Assembly: GCF_041081105.1 (NCBI RefSeq)
Contig: NZ_CP163528.1
Location: 1,674,001-1,738,000 of the forward strand
DNA length: 64,000 nucleotides
Origin: Promicromonospora sp. Populi
GTDB taxonomy: Bacteria; Actinomycetota; Actinomycetes; Actinomycetales; Cellulomonadaceae
Reading direction: 5' to 3'
The stretch's first letter is position 1, and each line of letters opens with the position of its first letter. A program made the translations under genes and the position numbers. Shown in pieces: positions 19,104 through 32,766 of the stretch. The notes under the pieces are model-generated. The model did no database searches. It had not been told where the DNA came from and was given only the letters and a program-made list of their open reading frames with translations.

Positions 19104-19793
19104 GTGTCCACGGAGCAACCGCGGTTGCGCAAAGACGCCGAGCTCAACCGGCGCCGCATCATCGCGGCCGCGCGGGAGGTGTTCCGCGACCGCGGAGTGG
19201 CGGCGACCCTCAACGACGTCGCCCACCACGCGGGTGTCGGGGTGGGCACGGTCTACCGGCGCTTTCCCGACAAGGAGGCGCTGATCGATGCCCTCTTCGA
19301 CGACATGGTCAAGACCGTCGAGACCGCGACGGCCGGCGCGCTGGACGAGCCGGACCCCTGGGTGGGACTGACGGTCTGCCTGGAGAAGGTCTGCGAGGTC
19401 CAGGCGATGGACCGCGGGCTGCGCGAAGTCCTGCTCGGCACCGGCAGCGGTCCGCAGCGGCAGGCACAGATGCGCGACCGGGTAGTGCCGCTGCTGAACC
19501 AGCTCGTGGCACGGGCACAGGCACAGGGCGAGCTGCGGCAAGACGTACAGCCGCCCGACTTCGCGATCATCCAGATCATGCTCGGCGCGGTCACCGACCA
19601 CCTGGGCCAGCCCGACCTGTGGCGGCGCTACCTCCACCTGCTGCTGGACGGGATGCGCGCCAGGGACGGACTGGCGCCCCTGCCGAAGGGCTCCCTACCC
19701 GAGCCCCCGGGTGTGAACAGCCTGGTCGCCAGGAGCGAAGAGGACGCGAAGCAGCACGCTTCTAGCCGGCGAAGTGCCGGGAGCGGCTCATGA
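19104..19793 (+). CDS. TetR-family regulator divergent from the esterase gene
   Basis: The 229-residue protein has a TetR DNA-binding domain with RRRIIAAAREVFRDRGVAAT, LNDVAHHAGVGVGTVYRRFP and DKEALIDALFDD, then a ligand domain with helices LREVLLGTGSGPQRQAQMRD and PPDFAIIQIMLGAVTDHLG. It starts with GTG at 19104 after GAGGTGA. The paired palindromes upstream are its probable operators, giving autoregulation and control of the esterase. Its 3' end overlaps the convergent MFS gene by 32 bp. Confidence 0.9.
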   Translation: MSTEQPRLRKDAELNRRRIIAAAREVFRDRGVAATLNDVAHHAGVGVGTVYRRFPDKEALIDALFDDMVKTVETATAGALDEPDPWVGLTVCLEKVCEVQAMDRGLREVLLGTGSGPQRQAQMRDRVVPLLNQLVARAQAQGELRQDVQPPDFAIIQIMLGAVTDHLGQPDLWRRYLHLLLDGMRARDGLAPLPKGSLPEPPGVNSLVARSEEDAKQHASSRRSAGSGS

Positions 19794-21009
19794 CGGCCAG
19801 GCCGACGGCGGCCACCAGGCTGTAGGCGGCTGGCGCGAGGAACACGTGCGGCAGCCCGAGCGCAGCCACGCCGAGGCCGCCCGTCAGGCCGCCGAGGGCA
19901 CTGGCGATGGCGGTGGAGCCCATGAAGATTGCTGAGGCCGTGGCGACGGCGTCGGGCAGCAGGCGTTGGGCGACGATGATTCCCAAGCCGGCGAAGACAC
20001 CCCACACCCCGCCCATGAGGATCTGCCCGGCGAACATGCCGAGCGCGTTGCCGGTCAGGGCGAAGCAGAGATTGGCGCCGACGCCGAAGGCGGCGGCAAG
20101 GATCATCAGGCGCATCAGGCCGATCCGGCGTGCGACGACGACGGCGACCGGCATCAGGATCAGCTCGATGAAGGGCTGGATGCCGATCACGGCACCGCTG
20201 ACCGCCGTCGGCAGGTGCAGGTTGTTGTCCATGTAGATCATGAGGTAGCCGTACTTGATCGGCTCCCCCGCGTAGACGAGCACGTACAGCCCGGTGAAGG
20301 CCAGCAGGGGCAGCATGGTCCGCAGTGCCGGGCGTGGTCTGTGGGCTTCGGCCGCCTCCTGCCCGACGACGCCGGCGCCTGCCGGCCGTGCTGAGCGGAT
20401 GCCCCTGAAGCCCATCGGAACGATCTGCGCGAGCGTGCACAGCCCGGTGGCCGCGAACATCACGCGCGGCCCGGCAGCGGTGGCCAGCAGGGAGCCCGCG
20501 ACCGGGCCGACGATCCAGCCGGCCGTCAGCGCCATCCGCACTATCGAGACGATCCCGTCACCGGCCGGGGTGGCGGTGGCCTGCACCTCGTCATGGACCG
20601 CGGCGAACAGCTGCGACCCGGCGGCGCCCGCGAAGGCCAGGACCACTGCGCTGATCACGAACGGCATCCACACCTGGTCCGAGAGCGCTATGCCGATCCA
20701 GCCGAGGAACCCCGCCACGGCGGCCAGCCGGAAGAGCCCGAGCCGCTTCCCGGTGCGGTCCGAGCGGGCGCCGACCAGATATCCGGCAACCGGGGCGGTG
20801 ATGCTGGTCAGGTAGAACAGGCCGGCCGTCGTCAACGAGACGCCCAGCTCGTCCACCAGGAACAGGGTGATCTGCGGTGCGGCGGCCGAGGTGCCCAGTC
20901 CGGACAGGAACAGCGCGACGGTCGCTCCGCGGTAGAGCGGCGAGCCCCACACGGTGTGCATCGCGGACGGTGTGGGCGTGACGCCGTCGGCGACAAGTGC
21001 TCGTGACAA
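19762..21009 (-). CDS. MFS transporter, sugar-efflux (SET)-like
   Basis: The 415-residue protein has about 12 membrane helices. The segments ALFLSGLGTSAAAPQITLFL, VGARSDRTGKRLGLFRL after helix 2 and AGWIVGPVAGSLLA resemble sugar efflux transporters of the SetA type. It is the last gene on the strand carrying the Nit1C genes, 116 bp after the DeoR stop, and may export the cluster's product or a toxic intermediate. The substrate cannot be read from sequence. Its own upstream gap contains CGAACA/TGTTCG half-sites. Confidence 0.87.
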   Translation of the reverse strand: MSRALVADGVTPTPSAMHTVWGSPLYRGATVALFLSGLGTSAAAPQITLFLVDELGVSLTTAGLFYLTSITAPVAGYLVGARSDRTGKRLGLFRLAAVAGFLGWIGIALSDQVWMPFVISAVVLAFAGAAGSQLFAAVHDEVQATATPAGDGIVSIVRMALTAGWIVGPVAGSLLATAAGPRVMFAATGLCTLAQIVPMGFRGIRSARPAGAGVVGQEAAEAHRPRPALRTMLPLLAFTGLYVLVYAGEPIKYGYLMIYMDNNLHLPTAVSGAVIGIQPFIELILMPVAVVVARRIGLMRLMILAAAFGVGANLCFALTGNALGMFAGQILMGGVWGVFAGLGIIVAQRLLPDAVATASAIFMGSTAIASALGGLTGGLGVAALGLPHVFLAPAAYSLVAAVGLAVMSRSRHFAG

Positions 21010-21125: not shown

Positions 21126-21884
21126 TCAGACCTGCTCGACCGTGACACCGGCGGTGCCGAGGCGGGAGACCTGGTCCTCGTCGGCGTCGGCGTCCGTGAC
21201 CACGGTATGGATGGACGAGGCCGGCGCGACGAAGGCCAGGGCCGTGCGGGAGAGCTTGGCGCCCTCGGTGACGGCGATGACGCGGCGGGAGGAGCCGATG
21301 GCGGTGCGTTTGACGGCGGCATCGTCCAGGTCGTAGGCGGTCAGGCCGTTGGTCGCGTCCAGCCCGCAGCAGCCGATGATCGCGGTGTCGAACCGGAGGG
21401 CGGCCAGGGACGCCAGGGTCAGCGGGCCGGTGAGGGCCAGCTCGCCTGCTCGCGGATGGCCGCCGGGGATCAGCAGGGTCACCTGCGGGGCCTCGGCCAG
21501 TGCGTTTGCGGCGTGCAGCGAGAGCGGCATCACCGTCAGCCTGCGGCCGGCCACGGCGCGGGCGACCTCCAGGCAGGTGGTGCCACTGTCGATGACCACG
21601 GACTCGCCGTCCGCGATCATCCGTGCGGCCGCGGCGGCGATGAGCCGCTTGTTCTCCAGACCGTCCTGGCTCCGCAGCGCGAAGGGCGGCTCCTCGCCAC
21701 GCAGCAGCAGGCTCCTGGCTCCCCCGCGATAGCGCTCGACGATCCCCTGGGCCGCCAGGACCTCCAGGTCGCGGCGGATCGTCATCTCCGAGGTGTCGGT
21801 GAGCTCGGCGAGCTCGGCGACGCTCATCCGTTCCGCCTTGCGCACGGCTTCGGTGATCTGCCTCAGTCGGTCGGTGCCAGCCAT
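21126..21884 (-). CDS. DeoR/GlpR-family regulator
   Basis: The 252-residue protein has an N-terminal DeoR winged helix (MSVAELAELTDTSEMTIRRD, LEVLAAQGIVERYRGGA) and a sugar-phosphate-sensing DeoRC domain with VVIDSGTTCLEVARAV, the FDTAIIGCCGLDATNGLT turn and ALAFVAPASSIHTVVTDADA. Family members are repressors released by phosphorylated sugars. It lies 50 bp after the AMP-ligase stop and before the MFS gene. Half-sites like ATGTTCG, the core of the GlpR operator, occur upstream of the radical SAM gene and of the MFS gene, so it probably controls this cluster. Confidence 0.92.
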   Translation of the reverse strand: MAGTDRLRQITEAVRKAERMSVAELAELTDTSEMTIRRDLEVLAAQGIVERYRGGARSLLLRGEEPPFALRSQDGLENKRLIAAAAARMIADGESVVIDSGTTCLEVARAVAGRRLTVMPLSLHAANALAEAPQVTLLIPGGHPRAGELALTGPLTLASLAALRFDTAIIGCCGLDATNGLTAYDLDDAAVKRTAIGSSRRVIAVTEGAKLSRTALAFVAPASSIHTVVTDADADEDQVSRLGTAGVTVEQV

Positions 21885-21934
21885 ACGTCACATTGAACAG
21901 AGTTTCTGTGCGAAAAGACGAATGGTGGGCACGA

Positions 21935-23377
21935 TCAGCCCCGCGCGGCGGATCGCCGGGCCTTGCCGGCGTCGTCGCGCACCGGCTCGTGCGTGACCCG
22001 GACCCGGACCGGGCGGCGGGCGGCATCCAGCCGGGCGGCCGCGAACCTGCGTAGCTCCTCGCCCGAGACGGCGGCCCCGGCGACGTCGGCCACCGCCTCC
22101 ACGTGCTGGCCCAGCTCGTCGTCGGGCACGCCGAAGGCCAGCGCGCCCCGCACCGCCGGGTGTTCCTCGAGCACCCGCTCCACCTCGACGGGATACACCT
22201 TCTCGCCGCCGCGCACGATGACGTCGTCGGCGCGGTCGGTCAGCCACAGCCATCCGTCGGCGTCGAGATGCCCCAGGTCGCCCAGGGTGTCCCAGCCGTC
22301 GGACCGGCGCAGGCTCGACGCCCCCAGGTACGCGTACGCCGGCTCGGCACCGCGCCGCAGCCAGACCTGGCCGGTCTCGCCCGGCGCGGCGTCCGTCCCG
22401 TCCTCGCGCAGCACCCGCACCTGAGTGCCACCCACCGGCCGGCCCACGCTGCCCGGGCGGGCCAGCCACTCGTCGCCGCGGATCATCGTGAGCCCGTTGG
22501 ACTCGCTGCCGGCGTACACCTCGACCACCCGCTCGGGGCCGAGCCAGTCCAGGACCGCTCGCTTGAGCGCAGGCGCGCACGGGGACCCCAGGTGCAGCAC
22601 CGTCTCCAGCGTGCGCAGCCGGTCCGGGGCACGCTCGCCGGCCGGCAGGCGCAGCAGGCGGTGCAGCATGGTCGGCACCAGCAGCGCCCACGTGACGCCG
22701 TGCCGCTCGATCGCCGCGAGCGCCACCCGCTCGTCGAACCGGTCGAGGAGCACCAGGGTGTGCCCGGTGAGCAGCCCGCGGAAGGCGTAGGTGAAGGTCG
22801 CCGAGTGGGTGAGAGGCCCGCTGACGAGCTGTGTGGCACGCAGCGGCAGGAACGGCGCGACTGGCCGCTCGGGGTCCAGGAGCGCGGGCGCGGTGGCCAG
22901 CACCACCTTCGGCCGGCCGGTGCTGCCCGACGACGTCGGGGCCTTCCATGACCGGGCCCAGGTGTCGGGCAGCCGGCCGGTCGGGGCAGCGGCGGCCGCT
23001 GGGCATGCGCCGTCCGGTCCGGGGCCTGGCAGGCTGGGGACGGCGTCTGCCTCGAACCCGATCACGAGCGCCGGGCGGGCGGTGGCGACGACGTCGGCCC
23101 GTTCGACCGGGGTAAGGCCCCGGGAGACCGGCTGAGGTGTGGCGCCCGCCTTCCAGATGGCCGCGCAGGCCACGAGCATCCCGAGCCCGTTGGGCAGGGA
23201 GACGGTCACGAGGTCGTCGCGGTGCACGCCGTGGTCCAGCAGCAGGCGTGCGTACCGGTTGCTCTCGGTGTCGAGGGCTGCGGCGGTGAGGCGCTGGTCG
23301 CCGGTGACGGCGACGACCCGGCCGGGATCATCCTCGGCGAGCGCGCTGATGATCCGTGAGATCGACCTCCTGGCCAT
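21935..23377 (-). CDS. AMP-forming acyl-CoA synthetase/ligase of the Nit1C cluster
   Basis: This 480-residue adenylating enzyme has the core P-loop TSSGSTGRPK, the YAGSESNGLT region, GDLGHLDADGWLWLTDRADD and IVRGGEKVYPVEVERVL, and the C-terminal catalytic Lys in DDAGKARR. It should activate a carboxylate as acyl-AMP, then pass it to CoA or an amine. AMP ligases recur in Nit1C neighbourhoods. GGGAGGTGACG precedes the ATG at 23377. The gene overlaps the glycosyltransferase by 50 bp, which implies coupled translation. At 480 residues it is slightly short for the family; the N-terminal domain around 130-160 is compact and Pro/Ala-rich. Confidence 0.9.
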   Translation of the reverse strand: MARRSISRIISALAEDDPGRVVAVTGDQRLTAAALDTESNRYARLLLDHGVHRDDLVTVSLPNGLGMLVACAAIWKAGATPQPVSRGLTPVERADVVATARPALVIGFEADAVPSLPGPGPDGACPAAAAAPTGRLPDTWARSWKAPTSSGSTGRPKVVLATAPALLDPERPVAPFLPLRATQLVSGPLTHSATFTYAFRGLLTGHTLVLLDRFDERVALAAIERHGVTWALLVPTMLHRLLRLPAGERAPDRLRTLETVLHLGSPCAPALKRAVLDWLGPERVVEVYAGSESNGLTMIRGDEWLARPGSVGRPVGGTQVRVLREDGTDAAPGETGQVWLRRGAEPAYAYLGASSLRRSDGWDTLGDLGHLDADGWLWLTDRADDVIVRGGEKVYPVEVERVLEEHPAVRGALAFGVPDDELGQHVEAVADVAGAAVSGEELRRFAAARLDAARRPVRVRVTHEPVRDDAGKARRSAARG

Positions 23378-24479
23378 CGTCACCTCCCACGCGCACGACG
23401 TGCTCGTAGAACCGCTCGTGTGCCCGGGCGGCCGTCGCCCAGCTGTGCCGCGCAGCCAGCTCCCGGCCCGCCGCGCCGTGCGTAGCCGGCTCGGCGTGCT
23501 CGACGGCGGTGGCGAGCGCCGCGGCGATCTGCGGCACGTCGGCGGCATAGGTGACGGTGTCCCCGAAGACCTCGCGGGTGACGGGCAGGTCGCGGGCCAC
23601 CACGGGCACACCGGCGGCGAGTGCTTCCATGGCGGCCAGGCCGAACCCTTCCTTGGTGGAGACGAAGCCCAGGACCGTGGCGGCGGCCACGAGGGTGGGC
23701 ACGTCGTCGTCGGCCAGCGTGCCGAGCACCACCGGCTCGATGCCGAGCTCCGCGCACCGCTTGTCGAACCGGGCGCGGTAGGGGCGGTAGTCGAAGAGGG
23801 TCTCTCCCCCGCCGAGCACGAGGCGCAGGTCCGGGTGGTCGGCGCGCAGCAGCGCGAAGGCGTCGAGCAGGTCGATGCTGCCCTTGCGCGGCTCGATGCC
23901 GCCCAGCGCGAGGACGTACCGGCCGAGCTCCGACCGCCACTGGCCGCGCGCGGGTGCGCCGTCGGGCCCGGCCGCGCGCGCGAACCGGGCGGCGTCCACG
24001 CCGTTGGGGATGACGGTGGGCCGTAGGCCGTAGCCGTCGCGCACCTCCTCGGCGACGGCGCGCGAGACGCACAGCCGCGCGATGGGCTCGGTGATCGCCA
24101 GGTGGTGGCACTCGATCAGCCGGGGCGTGGTGAACTCGTCGAGGTGGTGGATGGTGCGCACGCACGGGCCTACCGCGTTGGCCGAGATGCAGTCCTGTGC
24201 GTGCACGATGTCGTAGGCGACGGGATCGAAGGCGGCCGCCATGGTCTGGATGGACCGCTCGATGCGGTCGCCGACGCTCTCGTCGTCCCGGGCAGCAAAC
24301 GGGACGACGCGCACCTGGACCGCTGGGGCCACCGGCCGGAAGAAGGCGTCGTCCCCGTCCCGGCCCAGGGTCCAGACCGTGACGTCGTGGCCGCGGGCCG
24401 CGAGCGCCTCCGCGAGGGCGACGGTGTGCACCACGCCGCCGCGGGGCTTGGTCGAGTAGGTGACCTGGGCGATGCGCAC
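23328..24479 (-). CDS. Family 4-like glycosyltransferase, MSMEG_0565 type
   Basis: The GT-B enzyme begins MRIAQVTYSTKPRGGVVHTV, has an acceptor domain with HAQDCISANA and HHLDEFTTPRLIECHH, and a nucleotide-sugar domain with ALGGIEPRKGSIDLLDAFA and the EX7E motif in EGFGLAAMEALAAG. TIGRFAM describes an MSMEG_0565 glycosyltransferase family restricted to Nit1C-type clusters, which this resembles. I chose GTG at 24479 (GGAG 5 nt upstream) because residues added from the ATG at 24575 are Pro/Ala/Glu repeats. It probably glycosylates the cluster product; donor and acceptor are unknown. Confidence 0.88.
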   Translation of the reverse strand: MRIAQVTYSTKPRGGVVHTVALAEALAARGHDVTVWTLGRDGDDAFFRPVAPAVQVRVVPFAARDDESVGDRIERSIQTMAAAFDPVAYDIVHAQDCISANAVGPCVRTIHHLDEFTTPRLIECHHLAITEPIARLCVSRAVAEEVRDGYGLRPTVIPNGVDAARFARAAGPDGAPARGQWRSELGRYVLALGGIEPRKGSIDLLDAFALLRADHPDLRLVLGGGETLFDYRPYRARFDKRCAELGIEPVVLGTLADDDVPTLVAAATVLGFVSTKEGFGLAAMEALAAGVPVVARDLPVTREVFGDTVTYAADVPQIAAALATAVEHAEPATHGAAGRELAARHSWATAARAHERFYEHVVRVGGDDGQEVDLTDHQRARRG

Positions 24480-24525
24480 GGTGCTCCGTTCGTCCGGAGG
24501 TTCGGCCGGGAGTGCTGCCGGGGGC

Positions 24526-25410
24526 TCAGCCGGGGGTTCGGCTCGGCGTCGGCCGTTCGGTGAGGGTGTAGGCACCCTCGACGCGGTCCCGCAGGTGGTT
24601 CATGGTGCGGCGCGCGCGGGCGACGTCGGCCCCGACGTCCGCCGTCGCGATGGCGAGCCCGCCCTTGGCCCAGGTCTTGGCCACGATCTCCCCGGCCGGG
24701 TCCACGACCTTGGCCTGCCCGAGGAACCGCAGGCCGCCGAGCACGCCCGTCTGGTTGGAGGACACCACGTAGAGCTGGTTCTCCGCCGCCCGCGCGCAGT
24801 CGTACAGGTCGAACAGGTGGGCCTGCCGGTCGTTGCGCAGCCGGTCGGACCGGTCGGTGACGCTCGCGGGCCAGGCGCTGAGGCACGCGATGGTCTCGGC
24901 GCCGTCGAGGGCCAGCGAGCGGGCCGACTCGGGAAAGGTCTTGTCGAAGTCGATGAGCATGCCGAGCCGGCCGACGGGGGTGTCGAAGGCGTCGAAACCC
25001 GTTCCGGGCAGGTACGCCTCGGACTCGCCCAGCGGCAGGTGCACCTTGCGGTGCGTGCCGAGGATGCCGTCGCCGTTGACACACACAGCCGTGTTGTACC
25101 GCACGTCGATCTGATCGGCCTGTGCGCGTTCGGCGATGCCGAAGCAGACCACCATGTCCCCGGCCATCTGCTGGACCGCCGCGACCTCTGGTCCGTCGAG
25201 GTCGACGGCGGCCGGCAGCCCCTGGTCCGCAGGGTGGTACATGTCGTGGAGGTACCCGCCGATGGTGGCGTCCGGGAGCACGAGCAGGTCGACGCCGCGC
25301 TCGCGGGCCTGTTCGATGATCCCGGGGAGCTTGGCGAGTGTGCGATCGATGTCGCGGCCGAAGTGCGCCGCGACCGCACCCATGGTCGTCGTAGACATGT
25401 CCCACAGCAT
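24526..25410 (-). CDS. Nitrilase-superfamily paralogue lacking the catalytic Glu and Cys
   Basis: The protein aligns along its length with the neighbouring nitrilase: VDLLVLPDATIGGYL, THRKVHLPLGES, FDTPVGRLGMLIDFDKTFPE, LALDGAETIACLSAWPA and LGQAKVVDPAGEI. The catalytic triad is not conserved: the Glu is D47, the Lys remains (K122), and the Cys is D154. Codons at these sites are GAC, so no frameshift explains the change. Without the thiol nucleophile it cannot act as a normal nitrilase or amidase; a structural or regulatory pseudoenzyme, perhaps co-assembling with the active nitrilase, is likely. An ATG at 25398 is an alternative start. Confidence 0.88.
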   Translation of the reverse strand: MLWDMSTTTMGAVAAHFGRDIDRTLAKLPGIIEQARERGVDLLVLPDATIGGYLHDMYHPADQGLPAAVDLDGPEVAAVQQMAGDMVVCFGIAERAQADQIDVRYNTAVCVNGDGILGTHRKVHLPLGESEAYLPGTGFDAFDTPVGRLGMLIDFDKTFPESARSLALDGAETIACLSAWPASVTDRSDRLRNDRQAHLFDLYDCARAAENQLYVVSSNQTGVLGGLRFLGQAKVVDPAGEIVAKTWAKGGLAIATADVGADVARARRTMNHLRDRVEGAYTLTERPTPSRTPG

Positions 25411-25432
25411 GCCTCACCTGCCAGATCGTGCG

Positions 25433-26740
25433 TCATCGTGTTGCCACCGAGGACGGCGTGAGGGGGTCCTGCACGGGCCCGTCCCACGGGCCGCCGGCGT
25501 GCCAGTCCCGCACAGCGCGGGCGACGTGCGCCGTGTCCTGGGCGATGCCGAGGAACCGGCCCGAACCCCAGGTGTGCAGCCACGGCAGACCCACGAACGA
25601 CAGGCCGGGTGCCGGGCTCAGTCCGCGCACGTGCCGCGGGTGGTCCTCGTGGTCCAGCACCGCTGGTGCCAGCGTGTCGAGCCACGACCAGTCGGCCCGG
25701 AAGCCGACCGACCACACCACCGCGGCGATCTCGCCGAGGTCAAGCCGTTCCGGCTCGACCTCGGGTCGCCACACCGGGACGTACCGGTCCTCGGTGGGCG
25801 CTTCGATGCCCTGCGCCTCGATCCACCTGTCGATGTCGTCCTTGATGGACTCGGCCACCGAGTCGGCGTGGTCGAGGTCGCGGGCGAGCGTCGGGGCGAA
25901 CGTGAGGGTGCCGTCGACCACGCCGGCCGCTCGCCCGTACAGGTGCATCCCGCGGCGGGCGAAGTCCCGCAGGTCGATGTCCCGCCCGCCGTCGCGACCC
26001 GTGACGTAGTGGTTGGTCGACTCCCGTTTGGCCAGGCCGCGTGCGGCGACGGGCACGTCGTAGACACCCATCTCGGCCAGCCAGGTCATGCAGTCCTTGC
26101 CCCGGTAGCGGCGTGCCACGCGTGGCGCCCGCCCCGCAGCCAGGTGCACCTCGCGCCCCGCGAGGAGGAGGTCCTCGGCGATCTGCGTGCCGGACTGCCC
26201 GGTCCCGACCACGAGCACCGGCCCCGGGGGCAGCAGGCCGGGGTTGCGGTACTCGTGCGAGTGCACCTGGGTGACGCTGCCCGGTAGGGCGTCGGCCCAC
26301 CACGGCACCACGGGTTCGTGGTAGCCGCCCACGGCCGCCGTCACCGCGTCCGCGGTGACGGTACCGGCCGCGGTGGTCACCACGAACCCGCCGCCCGGTC
26401 GCGGCGCGAGCCGCGTGACGGCGACCCCCTCGGCCACCGGCGCGTCGAACGTGCCCGCGTACCGGACCACCCACTCGTACACCTCGTCCCGGCGCATGAA
26501 GCCCTCCGGTTCCGGGCCGTCGTAGGCGTAGCCGGGCAGCCGGCACTGCCAGTTCGGCGTGACCAGGGTGAACGCGTCCCAGCGGCCGTCGCGCCACTCG
26601 TGCCCCACGGTGTCCCGCTCCACCACGAGGTGGTCCACGCCGGAGCCGACCAGGTGGTTGCTCAGCGACAGCCCGGCCTGCCCGCCGCCGACGACCAGCA
26701 CCTCGTGATGGGCCCCGTCCACGACCCGCGCCCTCCTCAT
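25433..26740 (-). CDS. Flavin-dependent oxidoreductase, MSMEG_0569 family
   Basis: The 435-residue protein has an FAD Rossmann motif (VLVVGGGQAGLSLSNHL), the Baeyer-Villiger/FMO-like WRDGRWDAFTLVTPNW turn, a second dinucleotide site (VLVVGTGQSGTQIAEDL) for NAD(P)H, and VVWSVGFRADWSWLD near the end. TIGR04046 defines such flavoproteins in Nit1C clusters. It likely oxygenates or oxidises a cluster intermediate. Its ATG overlaps the nitrilase stop (ATGA), so the two are translationally coupled. Confidence 0.9.
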   Translation of the reverse strand: MRRARVVDGAHHEVLVVGGGQAGLSLSNHLVGSGVDHLVVERDTVGHEWRDGRWDAFTLVTPNWQCRLPGYAYDGPEPEGFMRRDEVYEWVVRYAGTFDAPVAEGVAVTRLAPRPGGGFVVTTAAGTVTADAVTAAVGGYHEPVVPWWADALPGSVTQVHSHEYRNPGLLPPGPVLVVGTGQSGTQIAEDLLLAGREVHLAAGRAPRVARRYRGKDCMTWLAEMGVYDVPVAARGLAKRESTNHYVTGRDGGRDIDLRDFARRGMHLYGRAAGVVDGTLTFAPTLARDLDHADSVAESIKDDIDRWIEAQGIEAPTEDRYVPVWRPEVEPERLDLGEIAAVVWSVGFRADWSWLDTLAPAVLDHEDHPRHVRGLSPAPGLSFVGLPWLHTWGSGRFLGIAQDTAHVARAVRDWHAGGPWDGPVQDPLTPSSVATR

Positions 26741-27594
26741 GCGGTGATCGCCCCGTACACGTCGGGGCGGCGGTCCCGCAGGTGGAACATCCCACCGCGC
26801 ATCGCACGGAACGTCTGCTCGACGTCTATCTCGGCCACGGCGAGGCCGGCGTCGAGCTGGGTCGTGGCCAGCACGTTCCCGCCCGGGTCGACCACCTTGG
26901 CGTTGCCCACGTAGCGCAGTGACCCGAACGTGCCCGCCTGGTTGGACGCGATCCAGAACACCTGGTTGTCGAGCGCGCGGGCGGCGTCGAACAGGTTGAA
27001 TCGGTAGGTCCACCGGTCCTGCTGCAGATCCTCGGCGGTCGCGGTGCGCGCCGCGGGCCACGCCGACAGGCTCACCACGATCTCCGCGCCGTCGAGGGCC
27101 AGCGCTCGCGCGGCCTCCGGGAAGGCCTTGTCGTAGCAGATCTGCAGGCCGACGCGCCCGACCGGCGTGTCGAACGCCTCGTAGGTGTCGCCCGCGGCGT
27201 ACGACATGTTCTCGCCCAGCGGCTGGTGCACCTTGCGGTAGGAGCCGTAGATCCGCTCCCCGTCCAGGCAGACGGCCGCGTTGTAACGGGTCTCGCCGTC
27301 CTCGTCGAGCTCGCAGAAGCCGATGCACACCACCGTCTGTCCCGCGAGCTCCTGCACCCGCCCGATCTCCGGGCCGTCGAGCCGGATCGCCGGCGGCAAC
27401 GAGCGCCGCGTGGTGCGCACGGTGTCCCCGTGGTTGCCGAGCGACGACAGGTAACCGCCGATGGACGCCTCGGGAAAGACGACGAGCTGCGCGCCCTCGG
27501 CACGCGCCTCGCCCAGGAGCTCCTCGATCAGGGCATAGTTCTGGTCGAGGTCACGGGTGAAGTTTGCCGACACGGCGGCGACGGTGATGCGCAC
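26737..27594 (-). CDS. Nitrilase, Nit6803/Sll0784 family (Nit1C)
   Basis: The 285-residue enzyme has the complete nitrilase triad: E42 (VVFPEASIGGYLS), K121 (SYRKVHQPLGE) and C153 (GLQICYDKAFPE). Relatives in Synechocystis (Sll0784, Nit6803) hydrolyse nitriles to acids and ammonia, and Nit1C clusters have been tied to cyanide assimilation and to nitrogen-starvation responses. The substrate here is not known. It is the only active-looking nitrilase of the two in the cluster and lies 41 bp after the MSMEG_0572-type gene. Confidence 0.93.
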   Translation of the reverse strand: MRITVAAVSANFTRDLDQNYALIEELLGEARAEGAQLVVFPEASIGGYLSSLGNHGDTVRTTRRSLPPAIRLDGPEIGRVQELAGQTVVCIGFCELDEDGETRYNAAVCLDGERIYGSYRKVHQPLGENMSYAAGDTYEAFDTPVGRVGLQICYDKAFPEAARALALDGAEIVVSLSAWPAARTATAEDLQQDRWTYRFNLFDAARALDNQVFWIASNQAGTFGSLRYVGNAKVVDPGGNVLATTQLDAGLAVAEIDVEQTFRAMRGGMFHLRDRRPDVYGAITA

Positions 27595-27635
27595 AGCAGC
27601 TGCTCCCTCCGGCCGTTTCCTACAGGTTGTATTTC

Positions 27636-28157
27636 CTACAGGTTGTAGGTGGAGTTGATGATCGCGCCCTTGCGCGCGTAGTGGATCACCGCGTCCTGCA
27701 CGTCCAGCGGGTGCGCCGGGATCACGCCCGCGATGAGGTCCTCCTCGCGGGCTCCGTGCAGCGACAGGCCGAACCGGCAGCAGAACACGGTGCCGCCCTC
27801 GCCGATGAACGTCTTGAGCGCGTCGTTGATGTTCTGCTCACCCGGGAACGCGCTGTCGCCCGTGGTCGGGAAACCGCGGGTGTCCAGCGCGTTGATCGCG
27901 CCGGGGCCGTAGAAGTAGATCGCCGACTCGAAGCCCTTCCGCAGCGCGCGCGTGGCCTGGAGGATCGCGACGAAGCTCACCGACGACTCGTGCGCGATGC
28001 CGTGCACCAGCGTGAAGTACGCCTGGCCGGGCTCCGCCTGGTAGTCGGGGAAGATCTTGGTCGAGCCGTAGAGGTTGCTGCCCTTGGGCAGCGACGGGTG
28101 CGGGATCTCCGCGAGCGACGTGTCGATGTTGGCCTGGATCTGCTCGTCGTAGGACAT
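27636..28157 (-). CDS. MSMEG_0572/Sll0783-family nitrogen starvation response protein
   Basis: The 173-residue protein matches the Sll0783/MSMEG_0572 family: FTLVHGIAHESSVSFVAILQ, AIYFYGPGAINALDTRGFP, the FCCRFGLSLHG Cys pair and DLIAGVIPAHPLDVQDAVIH. In Synechocystis loss of Sll0783 impairs polyhydroxybutyrate formation under nitrogen starvation. The fold resembles DsrE-like small cysteine proteins, which I infer from the pattern only. GGAGCCAAGGA precedes the ATG. It marks the locus as a Nit1C cluster. Confidence 0.92.
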   Translation of the reverse strand: MSYDEQIQANIDTSLAEIPHPSLPKGSNLYGSTKIFPDYQAEPGQAYFTLVHGIAHESSVSFVAILQATRALRKGFESAIYFYGPGAINALDTRGFPTTGDSAFPGEQNINDALKTFIGEGGTVFCCRFGLSLHGAREEDLIAGVIPAHPLDVQDAVIHYARKGAIINSTYNL

Positions 28158-28240
28158 GTTCCTTGGCTCCTTGTGGTGGTGGATGGTGCTGTCGTGCCGG
28201 GTGGGGCGGTCAAGCTGGTGGTGCGGTCTGGGTGGTGGTC

Positions 28241-29659
28241 TCAGGCAGGTCCGAAGCCCGTCGCGGCACCGGGGACCGCCACGGTGGTCACGCCGTCGGG
28301 CCAGCGCAGGCGGACGCCGGGCTCGGCGGTCAGCTCGCCGCACTCGGCAGTGGCCGCCAGCGGCGAGCTCATCCGCCCGGCACCGGACGGGTCCGCGGTG
28401 AGCATCGCGAAGCCCGGGAAGCAGGTGAGCCAGTCCCCCGGCGCGGCGTCGTCCGGCGCCGGTACGTCGGCGACGTCGATGGTGGCGCCCGTGCCCGATG
28501 CCTCGGCGAGCATCGCCGTCGTACCGACGATCCCGGCCATGCTCACGTCCTTGGCGGCGTGCGGGCGGGCCGCGCCGACGGTGCCGGCGAGGTGGCGCAG
28601 CTCGGCGGCCGAGCGCGACGACGTCGAGTCCCACTGCAGGCCCTCGAACCCCCGGCGCCAGCGACCCGAGAGATCCGCGGTCAGGGACAGGGCGTGCCCC
28701 GCCTGCCCGCCGCCGCCGGGGACCGGGTGGTCGGTGCGGCCGAGCGCGGTGACCGACAGCGACGCGGGCACACCGAGCTGGGTATGCCCGCCGAGCACCG
28801 GCACGCCCCACGCCTGGGACCCGCTGTGCAGCCCGTTGAGCACCCGGCGCGCGAACGACGCCGTCGGCGCGCCGACCGCGTCGGTCAGCCCGACGGCGTC
28901 GGCGCCCATCGCCGTGAGGTCGTTGACGTTGACGAGCACCGCGCACCAGCCGGCCCACTCGGGGTCGCGTTCGATCAGGGTCGGCAGGATCGCGTCGCAC
29001 GCGGCGACGACATCGGTGCCCGGCACCGGCGCGCCGTCGTCGCCCAGGAACCCGGCTCCGCCCAGCGCGGCAGGCCCGGTGTGCTCCAGCAGCGGCTCGA
29101 CGAGCCCGGCGAGCGCAGACTTGGTGGCGGCGACCAGGTCGGCTATCCGCGGCATCGGCCAGCGCATGAGCACGTGCGGCTGGCCCTGCACCTCGCGGGT
29201 GCCCGAGGGCAACCAGCCGAGCCGTTCGAACAGCACGCGGTTGCGCGTCTGCACAGTCGCGTCGAAGCGCAGCACACCGAGCTCGGCGACCCGGGCGCAT
29301 GCGGCTCGGACCAGCGCGGCACCGATCCCGCCGGCCCTGCGCGCACCGGGGGCGACGACCAGCCGGCTGCCGGTCCACCAGCCGATGTCGCGACCCGCCG
29401 CGTCGACCGCCTCGGGCGCCGGGGCGATGCGGACACCGCCCAGCACACGGTCGTCCGCGTCGAGGGCGACGAGCACCTGTGTGCGCTCGTCGTCGTCGAG
29501 GCGGTCCAGGTCCTGCCCCTTGAACAGCCCCTGCTCCACGACGAACGCGTCGCGGCGCAGCCCGCGGTAGGCAGCCAGGTGCCGCCCCTCGGCCGGGCGC
29601 ACCGTCCAGGGCGCGACGGGCGGCAGCGACCGGCCGGTGAGGGTGGGGACGTCGAGCAT
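28241..29659 (-). CDS. GNAT acetyltransferase fused to AIR synthase-like domain (MSMEG_0567 type)
   Basis: Residues 1-165 are a GNAT domain (FVVEQGLFKGQDLDRLDDDE, GGVRIAPAPEAVD, RLVVAPGARRAGGIGAALVR, RNRVLFERLGWLPSG). Residues 175-472 are an AIR synthase/PurM-like ATP-binding domain (NVNDLTAMGADAVGLTDAVG, VLGGHTQLGVPASLSVTALG, AAKDVSMAGIVGTTAMLAEA). In Synechocystis these are separate genes (sll0786 and sll0787); in mycobacteria they are fused, as here. The two activities may acylate and phosphorylate or cyclise a substrate. The ATG lies 1 nt after the radical SAM stop. Confidence 0.9.
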   Translation of the reverse strand: MLDVPTLTGRSLPPVAPWTVRPAEGRHLAAYRGLRRDAFVVEQGLFKGQDLDRLDDDERTQVLVALDADDRVLGGVRIAPAPEAVDAAGRDIGWWTGSRLVVAPGARRAGGIGAALVRAACARVAELGVLRFDATVQTRNRVLFERLGWLPSGTREVQGQPHVLMRWPMPRIADLVAATKSALAGLVEPLLEHTGPAALGGAGFLGDDGAPVPGTDVVAACDAILPTLIERDPEWAGWCAVLVNVNDLTAMGADAVGLTDAVGAPTASFARRVLNGLHSGSQAWGVPVLGGHTQLGVPASLSVTALGRTDHPVPGGGGQAGHALSLTADLSGRWRRGFEGLQWDSTSSRSAAELRHLAGTVGAARPHAAKDVSMAGIVGTTAMLAEASGTGATIDVADVPAPDDAAPGDWLTCFPGFAMLTADPSGAGRMSSPLAATAECGELTAEPGVRLRWPDGVTTVAVPGAATGFGPA

Positions 29660-29660
29660 G

Positions 29661-30728
29661 TCAGCCTCCGACCGTCGCGAGCGTGCTGCACGCCCCGCAC
29701 GCCGCGCAGCCCGCGGCCTGGTCGGAACCGCGCATCCCCGCGGCGACGAGCAGGCGGCCGACCCGCTGGGTGACGTCGGCGAGCACCGCGCGGTGCGGCG
29801 CCGGCACACGGTCGACGTCGGTCGCGAGGGTGCCGGCGAGCGGCCGGAACGGGACGACGAACGGGTACACGCCCATCTCGATGAGCTCCCCGGCGGACCC
29901 GACCAGCTCGTCGGGATCCTCACCGAGGCCCACGAGCAGGTAGGTGGAGACCTGGTTGCGCCCGAACACCCGCACTGCCTCCCGCCAGGCGGCGCGGTAC
30001 TCGTCGAGCGGGACGGTGGCCTTCCCCGGCATCCAGCGCCGGCGCACGGCGTCGTCCATCGACTCGACGTGGATGCCGATGGAGCGGGCTCCGGCGTCGT
30101 ACAGGTCCGTGATGGCCCGCAGGTCCGCGGGAGGCTCGCACTGCACCTGGACCTGCAGCTCCGGCACGGCCTTCTTGACCGCACGGACGCAGCGTGCGAG
30201 GTGCTTGGCTCCCCGGTCCCAGCCGTTGGAGGTGCCGGTGGTCATGACCATCTGCGAGACGCCGTCCAGCTCCCGGGCGGCCCTGGCCACCTCGGCGAGC
30301 ATGGCGGGCGTCTTGACGGCGATGGTCGTCCCGGACCGCAGCGACGACTCGATAGCGCAGAACCGGCAGCGCTCGCTCTCGTCGTAACGCACGCAGGTCT
30401 GCACCACCGTCGTGGCCAGGACATCCTTCCCGTGCAGCTTCGCGATCTTGTCGTACGGGGTCCCGTCCGCGGTGGTCAGGTCATAGAATCGCGGGCGGAC
30501 CACCGGTTCGACATCCATGCCGAGATCAGCACCGTCGAGGGTCAGCCGACCCTTCGACACGACATACGGGCTGTCGGGGTTGAGCGGTATCGCGGCCCCC
30601 GCACCACCGATGACGAAGTGTCCGTCGTCGCTCGGACCCGCACCACCCGCACGGCGGACCGGAGCATCGCTACGTACACCGAGGAGCGAGATGCTCACCC
30701 GGGTCGAGAGGTTGTCCGTCGGCGTCAT
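29661..30728 (-). CDS. Radical SAM protein, MSMEG_0568 family (Nit1C)
   Basis: The 355-residue enzyme leads the operon. Its SAM iron-sulfur motif is spaced CX8CX2C (C112, C121, C124 in VVQTCVRYDESERCRFCAIE), longer than the canonical CX3CX2C. VMTTGTSNGWDRGAKHLARC, VQCEPPADLRAITDLYDAGA and GIHVESMDDAVRRRWMPGK follow the radical SAM barrel. A second cysteine cluster (C341, C344, C347, in GCAACGAC) ends the protein and could hold an auxiliary cluster. TIGR04043 defines the family. The substrate is unknown. The 149-bp upstream gap is AT-rich and carries a GlpR-like half-site. Confidence 0.92.
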   Translation of the reverse strand: MTPTDNLSTRVSISLLGVRSDAPVRRAGGAGPSDDGHFVIGGAGAAIPLNPDSPYVVSKGRLTLDGADLGMDVEPVVRPRFYDLTTADGTPYDKIAKLHGKDVLATTVVQTCVRYDESERCRFCAIESSLRSGTTIAVKTPAMLAEVARAARELDGVSQMVMTTGTSNGWDRGAKHLARCVRAVKKAVPELQVQVQCEPPADLRAITDLYDAGARSIGIHVESMDDAVRRRWMPGKATVPLDEYRAAWREAVRVFGRNQVSTYLLVGLGEDPDELVGSAGELIEMGVYPFVVPFRPLAGTLATDVDRVPAPHRAVLADVTQRVGRLLVAAGMRGSDQAAGCAACGACSTLATVGG

Positions 30729-30877
30729 GAAGCCAAGTACAGGGGCCAGTTTTTACCGATTGGTTTCATTAGGAATACGAACATGTGACTTGGTGTTAAA
30801 ACTCGGCGTCGCGCCGAGATGATCGAGATGATGTCGGGCGGCGGTGCCATCGGGCGGCCCGTCGGTATGCTGCAGCG

Positions 30878-31543
30878 GTGGGTGCACCGCGGGTTCTGGT
30901 GGTGGAGGACGATGCCCGCCTGCTGGCGATGCTCACCGAGCTGCTGGAGGGCGCGGGCTACGACGTGACCGTCGCGCGCGACGGTCAGCGGGCCCTGCAC
31001 GAGGGCCTGACCGGCTCGTTCGACCTCATCCTGCTGGACCGCGGGCTGCCGGCCTTGGAGGGCCTCGACGTGCTGAACCGGCTGCGCCGCACCGGCATCA
31101 CCACGCCCACGCTGGTCCTGTCGGCGCTCGGCAACCCGGCCGACCGGGTCGAGGGCCTGGACCGCGGCGCGGAGGACTACCTGGCCAAGCCGTTCGACGT
31201 GGCAGAGCTGCTGGCCCGGCTGCGTGCCCTGCTGCGCCGGCACGAGCAGACGGCACCCGCCCTGCGGGTCCCGGGCGGTGTGCTGGACGTGACGGTGCGC
31301 GGCGTGCAGCTCGACGACGGCAGCGAGGTCGCGCTGTCCGAGCGCGAGTGCGACCTGCTCGAACACCTCGCCAGGCATCCGCGGCAGGTCCTGAGCCGCC
31401 ACGAGCTGCTCGCCGCCGTGTTCCCGGACGCCGACGACCAGGGCGTCGTGGACACCTACGTCCACTACCTGCGCCGCAAGCTCGGCCGGGCAACCGTCCA
31501 GACCGTGCGCGGGCTCGGCTACCGCCTGGGCGCACCCGCATGA
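30878..31543 (+). CDS. OmpR-family response regulator
   Basis: The 221-residue regulator has a receiver domain (VLVVEDDARLLAML) with phospho-acceptor D54 and conserved K104 (LAKPFD), and an OmpR winged helix (VALSERECDLLEHLARHPRQ to TVRGLGYRLG). It starts with GTG at 30878 and overlaps the sensor kinase start (ATGA). It likely drives the downstream redox genes. Confidence 0.95.
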   Translation: MGAPRVLVVEDDARLLAMLTELLEGAGYDVTVARDGQRALHEGLTGSFDLILLDRGLPALEGLDVLNRLRRTGITTPTLVLSALGNPADRVEGLDRGAEDYLAKPFDVAELLARLRALLRRHEQTAPALRVPGGVLDVTVRGVQLDDGSEVALSERECDLLEHLARHPRQVLSRHELLAAVFPDADDQGVVDTYVHYLRRKLGRATVQTVRGLGYRLGAPA

Positions 31544-32766
31544 ACGGCCGCGACGACGAGCAGGTCCGCCGCCCAGCACGCCGGCTGGCCGCCGTCCTCG
31601 CGCTGCTGATCGTCGTCCTGCTGGTCGGGGTCGCGGCGTCGGTGCTGGTCATCGTCGCCGGCAGCCAGGCGGACAGCAACCGCGACATCATCGGCGAGAC
31701 CGCGCGGACCGCGTCGGTCGACGACGTGCCGCAGGGCACGTACGTCGCGGTCGAGAGCGACGGCGAGCTGCTCCTCTCGCCCGGGATGCCGGACGGATTG
31801 CCCGACCAAGCGGCGCTGGACGAGGTCGCCCGCACCGGCCACTCGGTCGAAGGGACCACCGAGACCGACGGGGACCAGTTCCTGGTGCGGACCTCCATGG
31901 AGGGCGACCGCATCGTCCAGGTCGCCCTCGACCAGCACGACAACGCCGAGGAGCTGAGCCGGGTCGCCTGGGCGCTGGCGATCACCGGCGTGGTAGCCGT
32001 GGTGGCCGCCGCGCTGATCGCCGAGTGGATGGCCCGGCGGGCGATGGCACCCCTGGCCGCGTCGCTCGCGCTGCAGCGGCGGTTCATCGCCGACGCGAGC
32101 CACGAGCTGCGTACCCCGCTGACCCTGCTGCGCACCCGCGCGCAGCTGCTCCAACTACGCCTGCGCGAGCGGCCGGACCGGGACGAACACGTCGGCGCCG
32201 GCGTCGACGAGATCGCCGCCGACGCGCAGGGCCTCACCGACATCCTCGAGGACCTGCTGCTCGCCGCAGATCCACGTGAGGTGGTCGACGACGCCCCCGT
32301 GGACCTGGCCGCGCTCGCGGACGAGACCGTCCGCAGCCACCGCGCGGAGGCCGACCGGCGCGAGCTGCGGCTGGAGCGCACGGGGGCCACCACCCCGGTC
32401 ACCGTCCGCGGCTCACGCGTGTCGCTGGCCCGCCTCTGCTCGGCACTGGTCTGGAACGCGCTCGACCACGCCCGCACCACCGTCACCATCAACGTCACCA
32501 TCAACGTCACCACGGCAGCGCGCGACGCGGAGATCCGGGTGAGCGACGACGGGCCCGGGTTCGCGCCCGGCACGGAGCGGCAGGCCTTCGAACGGTTCGC
32601 CGGCGGCCGCCGGGCCGACGAGGCGCCCGGCCACCAGCGGCACTACGGCCTGGGACTGGCCCTGGTCGCCGAGGTCGCCCACCGCCACGGCGGAGACGTG
32701 CGCGCCGGCCGCGACCCGGCGACCGGTGGCGCGGTCGTCACCGTGCGGCTGCCACGTCAGGCCTGA
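31540..32766 (+). CDS. Sensor histidine kinase
   Basis: The 408-residue kinase has two membrane helices (about 16-41 and 144-162) flanking a 100-residue extracellular sensor, a short HAMP-like linker, the H-box DASHELRTPLTLLR with H188, and an ATPase domain with SALVWNALDHA, DDGPGFAPG and GLGLALVAEVAHRHGG. A small repeat, TINVTINVT, within the ATPase domain comes from a duplicated 12-bp segment (ACCATCAACGTC). It pairs with the preceding regulator. Confidence 0.95.
   Translation: MNGRDDEQVRRPARRLAAVLALLIVVLLVGVAASVLVIVAGSQADSNRDIIGETARTASVDDVPQGTYVAVESDGELLLSPGMPDGLPDQAALDEVARTGHSVEGTTETDGDQFLVRTSMEGDRIVQVALDQHDNAEELSRVAWALAITGVVAVVAAALIAEWMARRAMAPLAASLALQRRFIADASHELRTPLTLLRTRAQLLQLRLRERPDRDEHVGAGVDEIAADAQGLTDILEDLLLAADPREVVDDAPVDLAALADETVRSHRAEADRRELRLERTGATTPVTVRGSRVSLARLCSALVWNALDHARTTVTINVTINVTTAARDAEIRVSDDGPGFAPGTERQAFERFAGGRRADEAPGHQRHYGLGLALVAEVAHRHGGDVRAGRDPATGGAVVTVRLPRQA

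Follow-up and report, generated by a model that had tools for sequence, protein, structure and literature searches.

The chromosome of the soil actinobacterium Promicromonospora sp. Populi (RefSeq assembly GCF_041081105.1), a single contig of 5.22 Mb that is 99.99% complete, carries a cluster of nine genes within a stretch of 64,000 nucleotides (contig NZ_CP163528.1, positions 1,674,001 to 1,738,000; hereafter the window, numbered from its first letter). The genes lie between positions 21126 and 30728, all on the minus strand, and in order of transcription encode a radical S-adenosylmethionine (SAM) enzyme, a GNAT acetyltransferase fused to an AIR-synthase-like (AIRS) domain, a protein of the MSMEG_0572/Sll0783 family (here 0572), a carbon-nitrogen hydrolase (nit1), a flavin-dependent oxidoreductase, a second carbon-nitrogen hydrolase paralogous to the first (nit2), a glycosyltransferase, an AMP-dependent acyl-CoA ligase and a DeoR-type regulator. 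A first-pass annotation, made by a model from the letters alone, had proposed nine same-strand genes followed by a gene of the major facilitator superfamily (MFS), and this held when the junctions were re-derived with the chosen start codons: they range from -50 to +83 bp (+1, +83, +41, -4, +34, +46, -50 and +50 along the order of transcription), and the MFS gene lies 116 bp past the DeoR gene.

Six NCBIfam models of the MSMEG_05xx group exceeded their curated cut-offs, on five of the genes (MSMEG_0565, MSMEG_0567, MSMEG_0568, MSMEG_0569 and MSMEG_0572 families). The radical SAM gene (29661..30728; MSMEG_0568 family) matched TIGR04043 with 508.1 bits (cut-off 303.7), and its product has, besides CX8CX2C at residue 112, another cysteine motif (CX2CX2C) at residue 341. 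The GNAT-AIRS fusion (28241..29659; MSMEG_0567 family) matched TIGR04050 with 454.7 bits (312.2) and TIGR04045 with 89.2 (68.45); its AIRS part remained below the cut-off of TIGR04049 (171.8 bits against 321.3) because it belongs to TIGR04050, and the closest solved structure to the protein is HypE (2z1e, E 1.5e-9). The 0572 gene (27636..28157) matched TIGR04044 with 248.6 bits (109.85). For the flavoprotein (25433..26740; MSMEG_0569 family) TIGR04046 scored 573.1 bits (498.35), the second-best family likeness being to the ArsO monooxygenase and not to disulfide reductases; its start overlaps the nit1 stop in a 4-nt ATGA, with no MSMEG_0570-type gene in between. The glycosyltransferase (23328..24479; GT4 type, MSMEG_0565 family) matched TIGR04047 with 462.1 bits (259.85), its closest solved structures being PimA and D-inositol-3-phosphate glycosyltransferase, and it also gave matches below cut-off to the models of mycothiol MshA, bacillithiol BshA and selenosugar SenB. 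The other four genes were assigned by Pfam, namely nit1 (26737..27594) and nit2 (24526..25398) to PF00795, the ligase (21935..23377) to PF00501, with the bile acid-CoA ligase 4lgc as closest solved structure (E 2.8e-64), and the regulator (21126..21884) to PF00455/PF08220. The families first named for the radical SAM enzyme, GNAT, AIRS, 0572, flavoprotein and glycosyltransferase were thereby recovered; placement of the nitrilases in TIGR04048 and of AIRS in TIGR04049 was not.

Among known systems the gpr cluster (MSMEG_0565-0572) of Mycobacterium smegmatis comes closest. According to PMC6039565, GlnR strongly induces this cluster in nitrogen starvation, and a strain from which it is deleted has a lower NADPH/NADP ratio and survives peroxide treatment less well; PMC3662644 reports a GlnR peak at MSMEG_0572 by chromatin immunoprecipitation, and PMC4222082 and PMC4617892 list single gpr genes among those that respond to nitrogen limitation. 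The gpr-type content (glycosyltransferase, two carbon-nitrogen hydrolases, fused GNAT-AIRS, radical SAM enzyme, flavoprotein and 0572) is contiguous on one strand in the window. For comparison we used the best 80 of 533 loci confirmed by alignment of 0572 (the named loci), of which 70 hold 0572, radical SAM, GNAT-AIRS and glycosyltransferase genes and are complete by that definition, the other 10 being dropped; two strains occur under two handles among the rows (L028/L086 and L033/L064), and a gene is called absent when it does not lie in the fetched stretch, which extends at most 10 kb to either side and less on short contigs. Nit1, nit2 and the flavoprotein are also held by 65 of the 70 complete loci, the remaining five being without nit1, nit2 or the flavoprotein, and the window is therefore an ordinary member by content. 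The nearest named relatives within these 80 loci are Myceligenerans indicum and M. pegani, whose 0572 proteins are 97% identical to that of the window, which places the host in or near the Promicromonosporaceae; within the genus itself the 0572 marker is patchy (3 of 13 genomes, the host's own counted). As first annotated, an MSMEG_0570-type gene is missing, with no match in the whole genome. This gene is present in 10 of 25 cluster genomes, including both cluster-bearing congeners (G005 and G007), and was not found in six of the 70 complete loci (four Frankia and two Nocardia), so that it is dispensable in the gpr type. Two Williamsia loci (L120 and L126) hold a small partial copy only, consisting of 0572, nit1 and the flavoprotein, with a ligase fragment in L120; W. 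soli (L093) has a fuller cluster elsewhere, without the flavoprotein.

The locus had initially been labelled an extended Nit1C cluster, with the link to cyanide assimilation that this name carries. Against the model of the Nit1C nitrilase (TIGR04048, Nit6803 family; cut-off 502.6 bits) nit1 scored 42.1 bits and nit2 30.7. Nothing in the host genome passed this cut-off, nor did anything in the 25 actinobacterial genomes with the 0572 marker (best 248 bits), and one of 14 control genomes did. Annotated Nit6803-family nitrilases fill the hydrolase slot in four proteobacterial plasmid clusters (Aquabacterium, Pantoea, Methylorubrum and Agrobacterium), in which the active-site stretch is ACWEHYNPLA as against ICYDKAFPEA in nit1; a CWE context is typical of nitrilases and CYD-like contexts of amidases. 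The solved structures closest to nit1 are amidases and N-carbamoyl hydrolases (PH0642, 3ivz, N-carbamoylputrescine amidohydrolase), further relatives being plant NIT4 (E 2.3e-18) and, at only E 2.4e-4, Nit6803 itself (3wuy). The Glu-Lys-Cys triad, E42-K121-C153 in the window, is intact in all 86 nit1 rows, the window's among them. On account of the active-site stretch and the ranking of solved structures, nit1 is read as a probable amidase or carbamoylase. Homologues of five Nit1C components are clustered here, i.e. 0572/Sll0783 (ORF1), the radical SAM enzyme, GNAT, AIRS (as the fused TIGR04050 form) and the flavoprotein; the subfamily-1 nitrilase (TIGR04048) and ORF6 (MSMEG_0570 type, TIGR04042) were not found. 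By its protein families, then, the locus is not Nit1C as defined and the name fits only partly; since the defining subfamily-1 nitrilase is absent both here and, at the curated cut-off, from the 25 tested actinobacterial genomes, the cyanide link is not transferable, and actinobacterial clusters like this one should no longer carry either the name or the link.

The second hydrolase had been described as a dead nitrilase, and its nucleophile is indeed replaced: Asp150 stands for the cysteine and Asp43 for the first glutamate, with the lysine (Lys118) and the second glutamate (Glu125) kept as in nit1. Aspartate occupies the nucleophile position in all of the best 120 of 3454 matching database proteins and in 79 of 80 locus rows, the window's among them, the sole exception (L040) being a single-copy gene with an intact triad that is called nit2 merely by best match. 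In a tree of 88 rows picked from the residue-check rows and built by a quick method, the 40 Asp-type rows form one side of a single branch (Shimodaira-Hasegawa-like approximate likelihood ratio test 94, just under the starred level). Ratios of nonsynonymous to synonymous substitution between the window and five relatives, as pairwise counting estimates, are 0.12-0.18 for nit2 and 0.09-0.12 for nit1. Leaving out the row of L040 and the nit1 row of L035, a comparison of the paralogues gives four positions, and no more, at which each is at least 95% conserved but with a different residue: C153/D150, W195/Q192, R198/L195 and L208/A205. The structure model of nit2 has a nitrilase fold with a mean predicted local distance difference test (pLDDT) score of 86.1. 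Nit2 is a constrained, specialised paralogue under purifying selection and not a decaying copy, and it probably serves as a non-hydrolytic partner. It is dispensable, given that L057 and some other loci hold one intact nitrilase only; L058 and L094 have nit2 without nit1 in the fetched stretch. As far as the alignments go, the predicted active hydrolase of gpr-type actinobacterial clusters travels with an Asp-nucleophile sister wherever a second copy is seen. Titles and abstract openings of the open-licence literature contained no description of such a Cys-to-Asp nitrilase pair.

The end of nit1 is also the subject of a proposal, made in PMC6039565, that the UGA of MSMEG_0571 (nit1) is read as selenocysteine and translation continued into the flavoprotein. 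All 85 locus rows have TGA as the stop of nit1, which at first seemed to favour read-through. In 74 of these rows, however, the end of nit1 overlaps the start of the 0570 gene by 8 nt, typically ATGCCTGAGATG (Met-Pro-Glu-Met), and this overlap accounts for the TGA; the other 11 rows (ten without a 0570 gene, and L089) are not explained in this way. TGA is also the usual stop in these loci (85 of 86 radical SAM genes). Past the nit1 TGA the frame runs on for over 500 codons in 33 of the 85 rows and closes within 163 codons in 52, and in the window it closes after 24; no SelB exceeded its cut-off in the host genome. Read-through was accordingly rejected as a family-wide mechanism on the grounds of frame closure, the 0570 overlap and the lack of SelB, the test covering these loci and not M. 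smegmatis itself, and the overlap with the 0570 start offers a plain alternative to the published proposal.

A wider comparison brought out which parts of the cluster are constant. An AlphaFold2 model of 0572, of modest quality (mean pLDDT 73.4), has a DsrE/YchN/TusD fold, and a Foldseek search with it returned YchN, DsrEFH and TusBCD, the template modelling score to YchN being 0.80 by target and 0.56 by query. When the 0572 profile was compared with PDB sequences, only CCR4-NOT was matched (E 4e-4 and 0.003); these matches were deemed spurious and the fold search was used instead. Cys127 of 0572 is present in all 107 rows, which span all three cluster types (gpr type, Nit6803 type and a third described below), and was judged from the secondary structure, and not from a residue-level superposition, to lie at the active-site position of the predicted DsrE/TusD fold.

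The third cluster type occurs in other families and classes of the phylum (L036-L039, L041, L043-L045, L140 and L142, from nine genomes). In the fetched stretches of these nine long-contig genomes, 0572, the radical SAM enzyme and GNAT are present in all nine and AIRS and the glycosyltransferase in eight each, the core proteins being about 34-50% identical to those of the window. An amidohydrolase sits between 0572 and the radical SAM gene in eight of the nine (PF04909 by Pfam for L036 and L044, and by similarity for the others); three short contigs without it at that place (L137-L139) were excluded from these counts. Genes for a carbamate kinase and an AllG-like protein lie nearby, each in eight of nine. 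Most of these loci also have a helix-turn-helix-cupin regulator and a flavoprotein resembling CoA-disulfide reductase, the latter below the cut-off of its model. The ninth genome, G222 (L041), has no amidohydrolase; genes for nitrile hydratase beta, alpha and activator-like proteins and for a CbtA cobalt transporter follow the glycosyltransferase (L041:14123-16645), which, being a single locus, may be coincidence. Titles and abstract openings of the open-licence literature held no description of this cluster type either. The hydrolase slot is hence exchangeable across cluster types, being filled by a Nit6803 nitrilase, the amidase-type pair, a PF04909 amidohydrolase or, perhaps, a nitrile hydratase. 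Wherever another hydrolase is present, a different C-N chemistry accompanies the core. What stays constant is the Cys-bearing DsrE-like protein together with AIRS, GNAT and the radical SAM enzyme, the C-N hydrolase being the part that varies; with the nitrilase not constant, cyanide is unlikely as a common substrate. Among mobile carriers, a Rhodococcus plasmid (L050) bears the whole cluster with IS256 transposases flanking both sides, and 515 plasmid records have a 0572-like gene, of which 374 are from Klebsiella.

Control by nitrogen supply was sought in the upstream regions, using the strict GlnR consensus Gn2ACn6GnAAC as given in PMC3662644. Of 91 upstream regions, 24 contain a strict box, where shuffled sequences give 3.4. 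A weight matrix built from the strict sites, with each locus left out when tested, gave a match at p ≤ 0.05 in 59 of the 91 upstream regions and in 38 of the 67 that have no strict site, the group to which our locus belongs. Its best site, GAAACCAATCGGTAAA (30752..30767, minus strand, 5' of the radical SAM gene), has p = 0.016, which is the floor of 60 shuffles, scores above 99.7% of 1470 in-gene control windows and lies inside the best-conserved block of a ten-locus upstream alignment. On these motif matches the cluster is a likely candidate for control by GlnR, the site's short distance to the start codon (23 nt) and the lack of a strict box counting against it. A response regulator and sensor kinase pair (30878-32766), divergent from the radical SAM gene, was considered as the cluster's regulator and set aside: relatives were found in only one of ten loci (L026), there downstream of the ligase.

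Taken together, we consider the locus to be, with a probability of roughly 60%, the actinobacterial gpr form of a larger 0572-radical SAM-GNAT-AIRS family, that is, an operon for nitrogen starvation in which enzymes grouped around a DsrE-like core process a metabolite of amide or ureide type, and not a cyanide operon. The observed and computed basis consists of family membership, synteny, the purifying selection and conserved change of the nucleophile, the DsrE-like fold predicted for 0572 with its invariant cysteine and the enrichment of GlnR-like boxes. From it we infer all catalytic steps, the metabolite and the role of nit2 as a partner. GlnR or a similar regulator would switch the operon on in nitrogen limitation, and the DsrE-like 0572 protein would carry a group on its invariant cysteine. 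A small metabolite would be altered by the radical SAM enzyme, the flavoprotein and, with the use of ATP, the AIRS domain together with its GNAT; nit1 would then cleave an amide or N-carbamoyl group from it with release of ammonia. Nit2, a presumed non-hydrolytic paralogue, may have been retained as a partner of nit1 inside the nitrilase oligomer, with a part in its structure or regulation, and the glycosyltransferase, joined in some lineages by the CoA ligase, would conjugate the metabolite. Several points weigh against this interpretation. No strict GlnR box lies upstream of the cluster; GAAACCAATCGGTAAA ends 23 nt before the chosen radical SAM start, an odd spot for an activator site; and of the four nearest relatives three (L026, L055 and L056) have p values of 0.066-0.098, only L027 (0.033) reaching 0.05. 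Nit2 could catalyse another reaction using its aspartate. The authors of PMC6039565, moreover, interpret the gpr phenotype as redox balance and not as ammonia release.

The first-pass annotation had taken the ligase, glycosyltransferase and exporter as additions that suggest a secreted or glycosylated product. Only for the ligase did this partly stand. Its orthologue recurs in 18 of the 70 complete loci (matches below 45% identity not counted), in three different positions: after the glycosyltransferase in seven, between the flavoprotein and the radical SAM gene in seven and between the flavoprotein and 0572 in four. The glycosyltransferase is no addition, since 70 of the 80 named loci have TIGR04047 beside the remaining core genes (it being one of the genes by which these 70 were defined), and it was already noted in Burkholderia/Rubrivivax Nit1C in 2005 (PMC1199592). 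The MFS gene (19762..21009, minus strand; PF07690) encodes a sugar-efflux-like transporter far under the cut-off of TIGR00899 (88.1 bits against 522.3). At E ≤ 1e-40 the DeoR protein matched only itself and one 40% paralogue across 29 genomes (the host and 28 others), and no counterpart of DeoR or MFS was found in the stretches fetched for 10 related loci. Both look like local neighbours and not conserved parts of the cluster, and a secreted product is therefore without support from conservation. An exported molecule, for which the core would build a scaffold, the CoA ligase activate an acyl group, the glycosyltransferase add a sugar, the MFS protein export the product and DeoR sense it, is nonetheless the best placed of the alternatives, if an unlikely one. 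The recurrence of the ligase speaks for it, as do the acyl-type genes that end some proteobacterial clusters (L051, L052 and L054); the ligase orthologue is, however, not in the fetched stretches of 52 of the 70 complete loci, it is lacking from the cluster of the close relative L055, and neither exporter nor regulator was found beside related clusters. The ends of the proteobacterial clusters themselves differ, with an AMP-binding protein in Pantoea, a Pnap_2097 family protein in Agrobacterium and an acyl-CoA/acyl-ACP dehydrogenase in Aquabacterium.

Synthesis or recycling of a low-molecular-weight thiol, or of a redox cofactor like it, is rather improbable as the role of the cluster; such a pathway would combine an MshA-kind glycosyltransferase, GNAT, a SelD-like AIRS domain, a DsrE-like sulfur carrier, a radical SAM enzyme with an extra cysteine motif and a flavoprotein. 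The nearness of the glycosyltransferase to PimA and D-inositol-3-phosphate glycosyltransferase, its sub-threshold MshA, BshA and SenB matches, the invariant cysteine on the predicted fold of 0572, the peroxide and NADPH phenotype of gpr (PMC6039565) and the sub-threshold CoA-disulfide-reductase-like flavoprotein of the third cluster type all agree with such a role; on the other hand, the glycosyltransferase and AIRS likenesses are common to large superfamilies, and the window's flavoprotein resembles ArsO monooxygenase and not disulfide reductases. A speculative extension, to which we give little weight, is that all cluster types share one pathway, in which the HypE-like AIRS domain would use ATP to dehydrate a carbamoyl or amide group on the 0572 cysteine. 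The resulting intermediate, like a nitrile or a cyanate, would undergo processing that involves the radical SAM enzyme before the hydrolase of each lineage (Nit6803 nitrilase, nit1 with nit2, amidohydrolase or nitrile hydratase) unloads it; if true, it would describe a nitrogen-handling cofactor or currency system not described before, and not a cyanide detoxification operon. A true Nit1C cluster, turning cyanide and a keto acid into a 2-hydroxynitrile from which the nitrilase yields ammonia and an acid, is the least credible alternative: five protein families are homologous and PMC11049912 ties NitC to growth of Pseudomonas on cyanide, but the nitrilases score 42 and 31 bits against 502.6, none of the 25 actinobacterial cluster genomes passes, the context is CYDKAFPE rather than CWEHYNPL, amidases and carbamoyl hydrolases are the closest solved structures, and the sixth Nit1C protein (0570) is absent from the genome.

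The interest of the gpr reading, and of the amide- or ureide-processing operon proposed here, lies in a cluster type that is widespread and, in M. smegmatis, strongly induced by starvation (PMC6039565). Three facts narrow the search for its chemistry, namely that the nitrilase is not constant, that a DsrE-like cysteine protein is constant together with the radical SAM enzyme, AIRS and GNAT, and that the predicted active hydrolase of actinobacterial gpr-type clusters has an Asp-type sister where a second copy is present; specific leads are this conserved partner with Asp for Cys and a hydrolase that can be exchanged around the DsrE-radical SAM-AIRS core.

Set beside known systems, the locus shares with gpr the same families, the fused GNAT-AIRS, two carbon-nitrogen hydrolases, the glycosyltransferase and a GlnR-like box upstream; seven of the eight gpr genes have a counterpart here, a judgement based on the families and on Mycolicibacterium loci and not on the M. 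smegmatis sequence itself. It differs in having no MSMEG_0570 counterpart, an added acyl-CoA ligase, adjoining DeoR and MFS genes and the radical SAM gene as first gene, where Mycolicibacterium loci have 0572. With Nit1C (nit1C/nitBCDEFGH) of proteobacteria and cyanobacteria it has homologous 0572, radical SAM, GNAT, AIRS and flavoprotein genes in common, and in some a glycosyltransferase; here, however, the nitrilase is of another branch and doubled, one copy being without its nucleophile, GNAT and AIRS are fused and 0570 is absent. Members of the amidase-type nitrilase superfamily (PH0642, N-carbamoylputrescine amidohydrolase) resemble both hydrolases in fold and in the lysine and second glutamate, and nit1 in the full triad, whereas nit2 has aspartate for the cysteine and aspartate, histidine or glycine for the first glutamate. 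The third cluster type shares 0572, the radical SAM enzyme, GNAT, AIRS and the glycosyltransferase with the window and differs from it in having genes for an amidohydrolase, a carbamate kinase and an AllG-like protein, or, in one locus without the amidohydrolase, for a nitrile hydratase.

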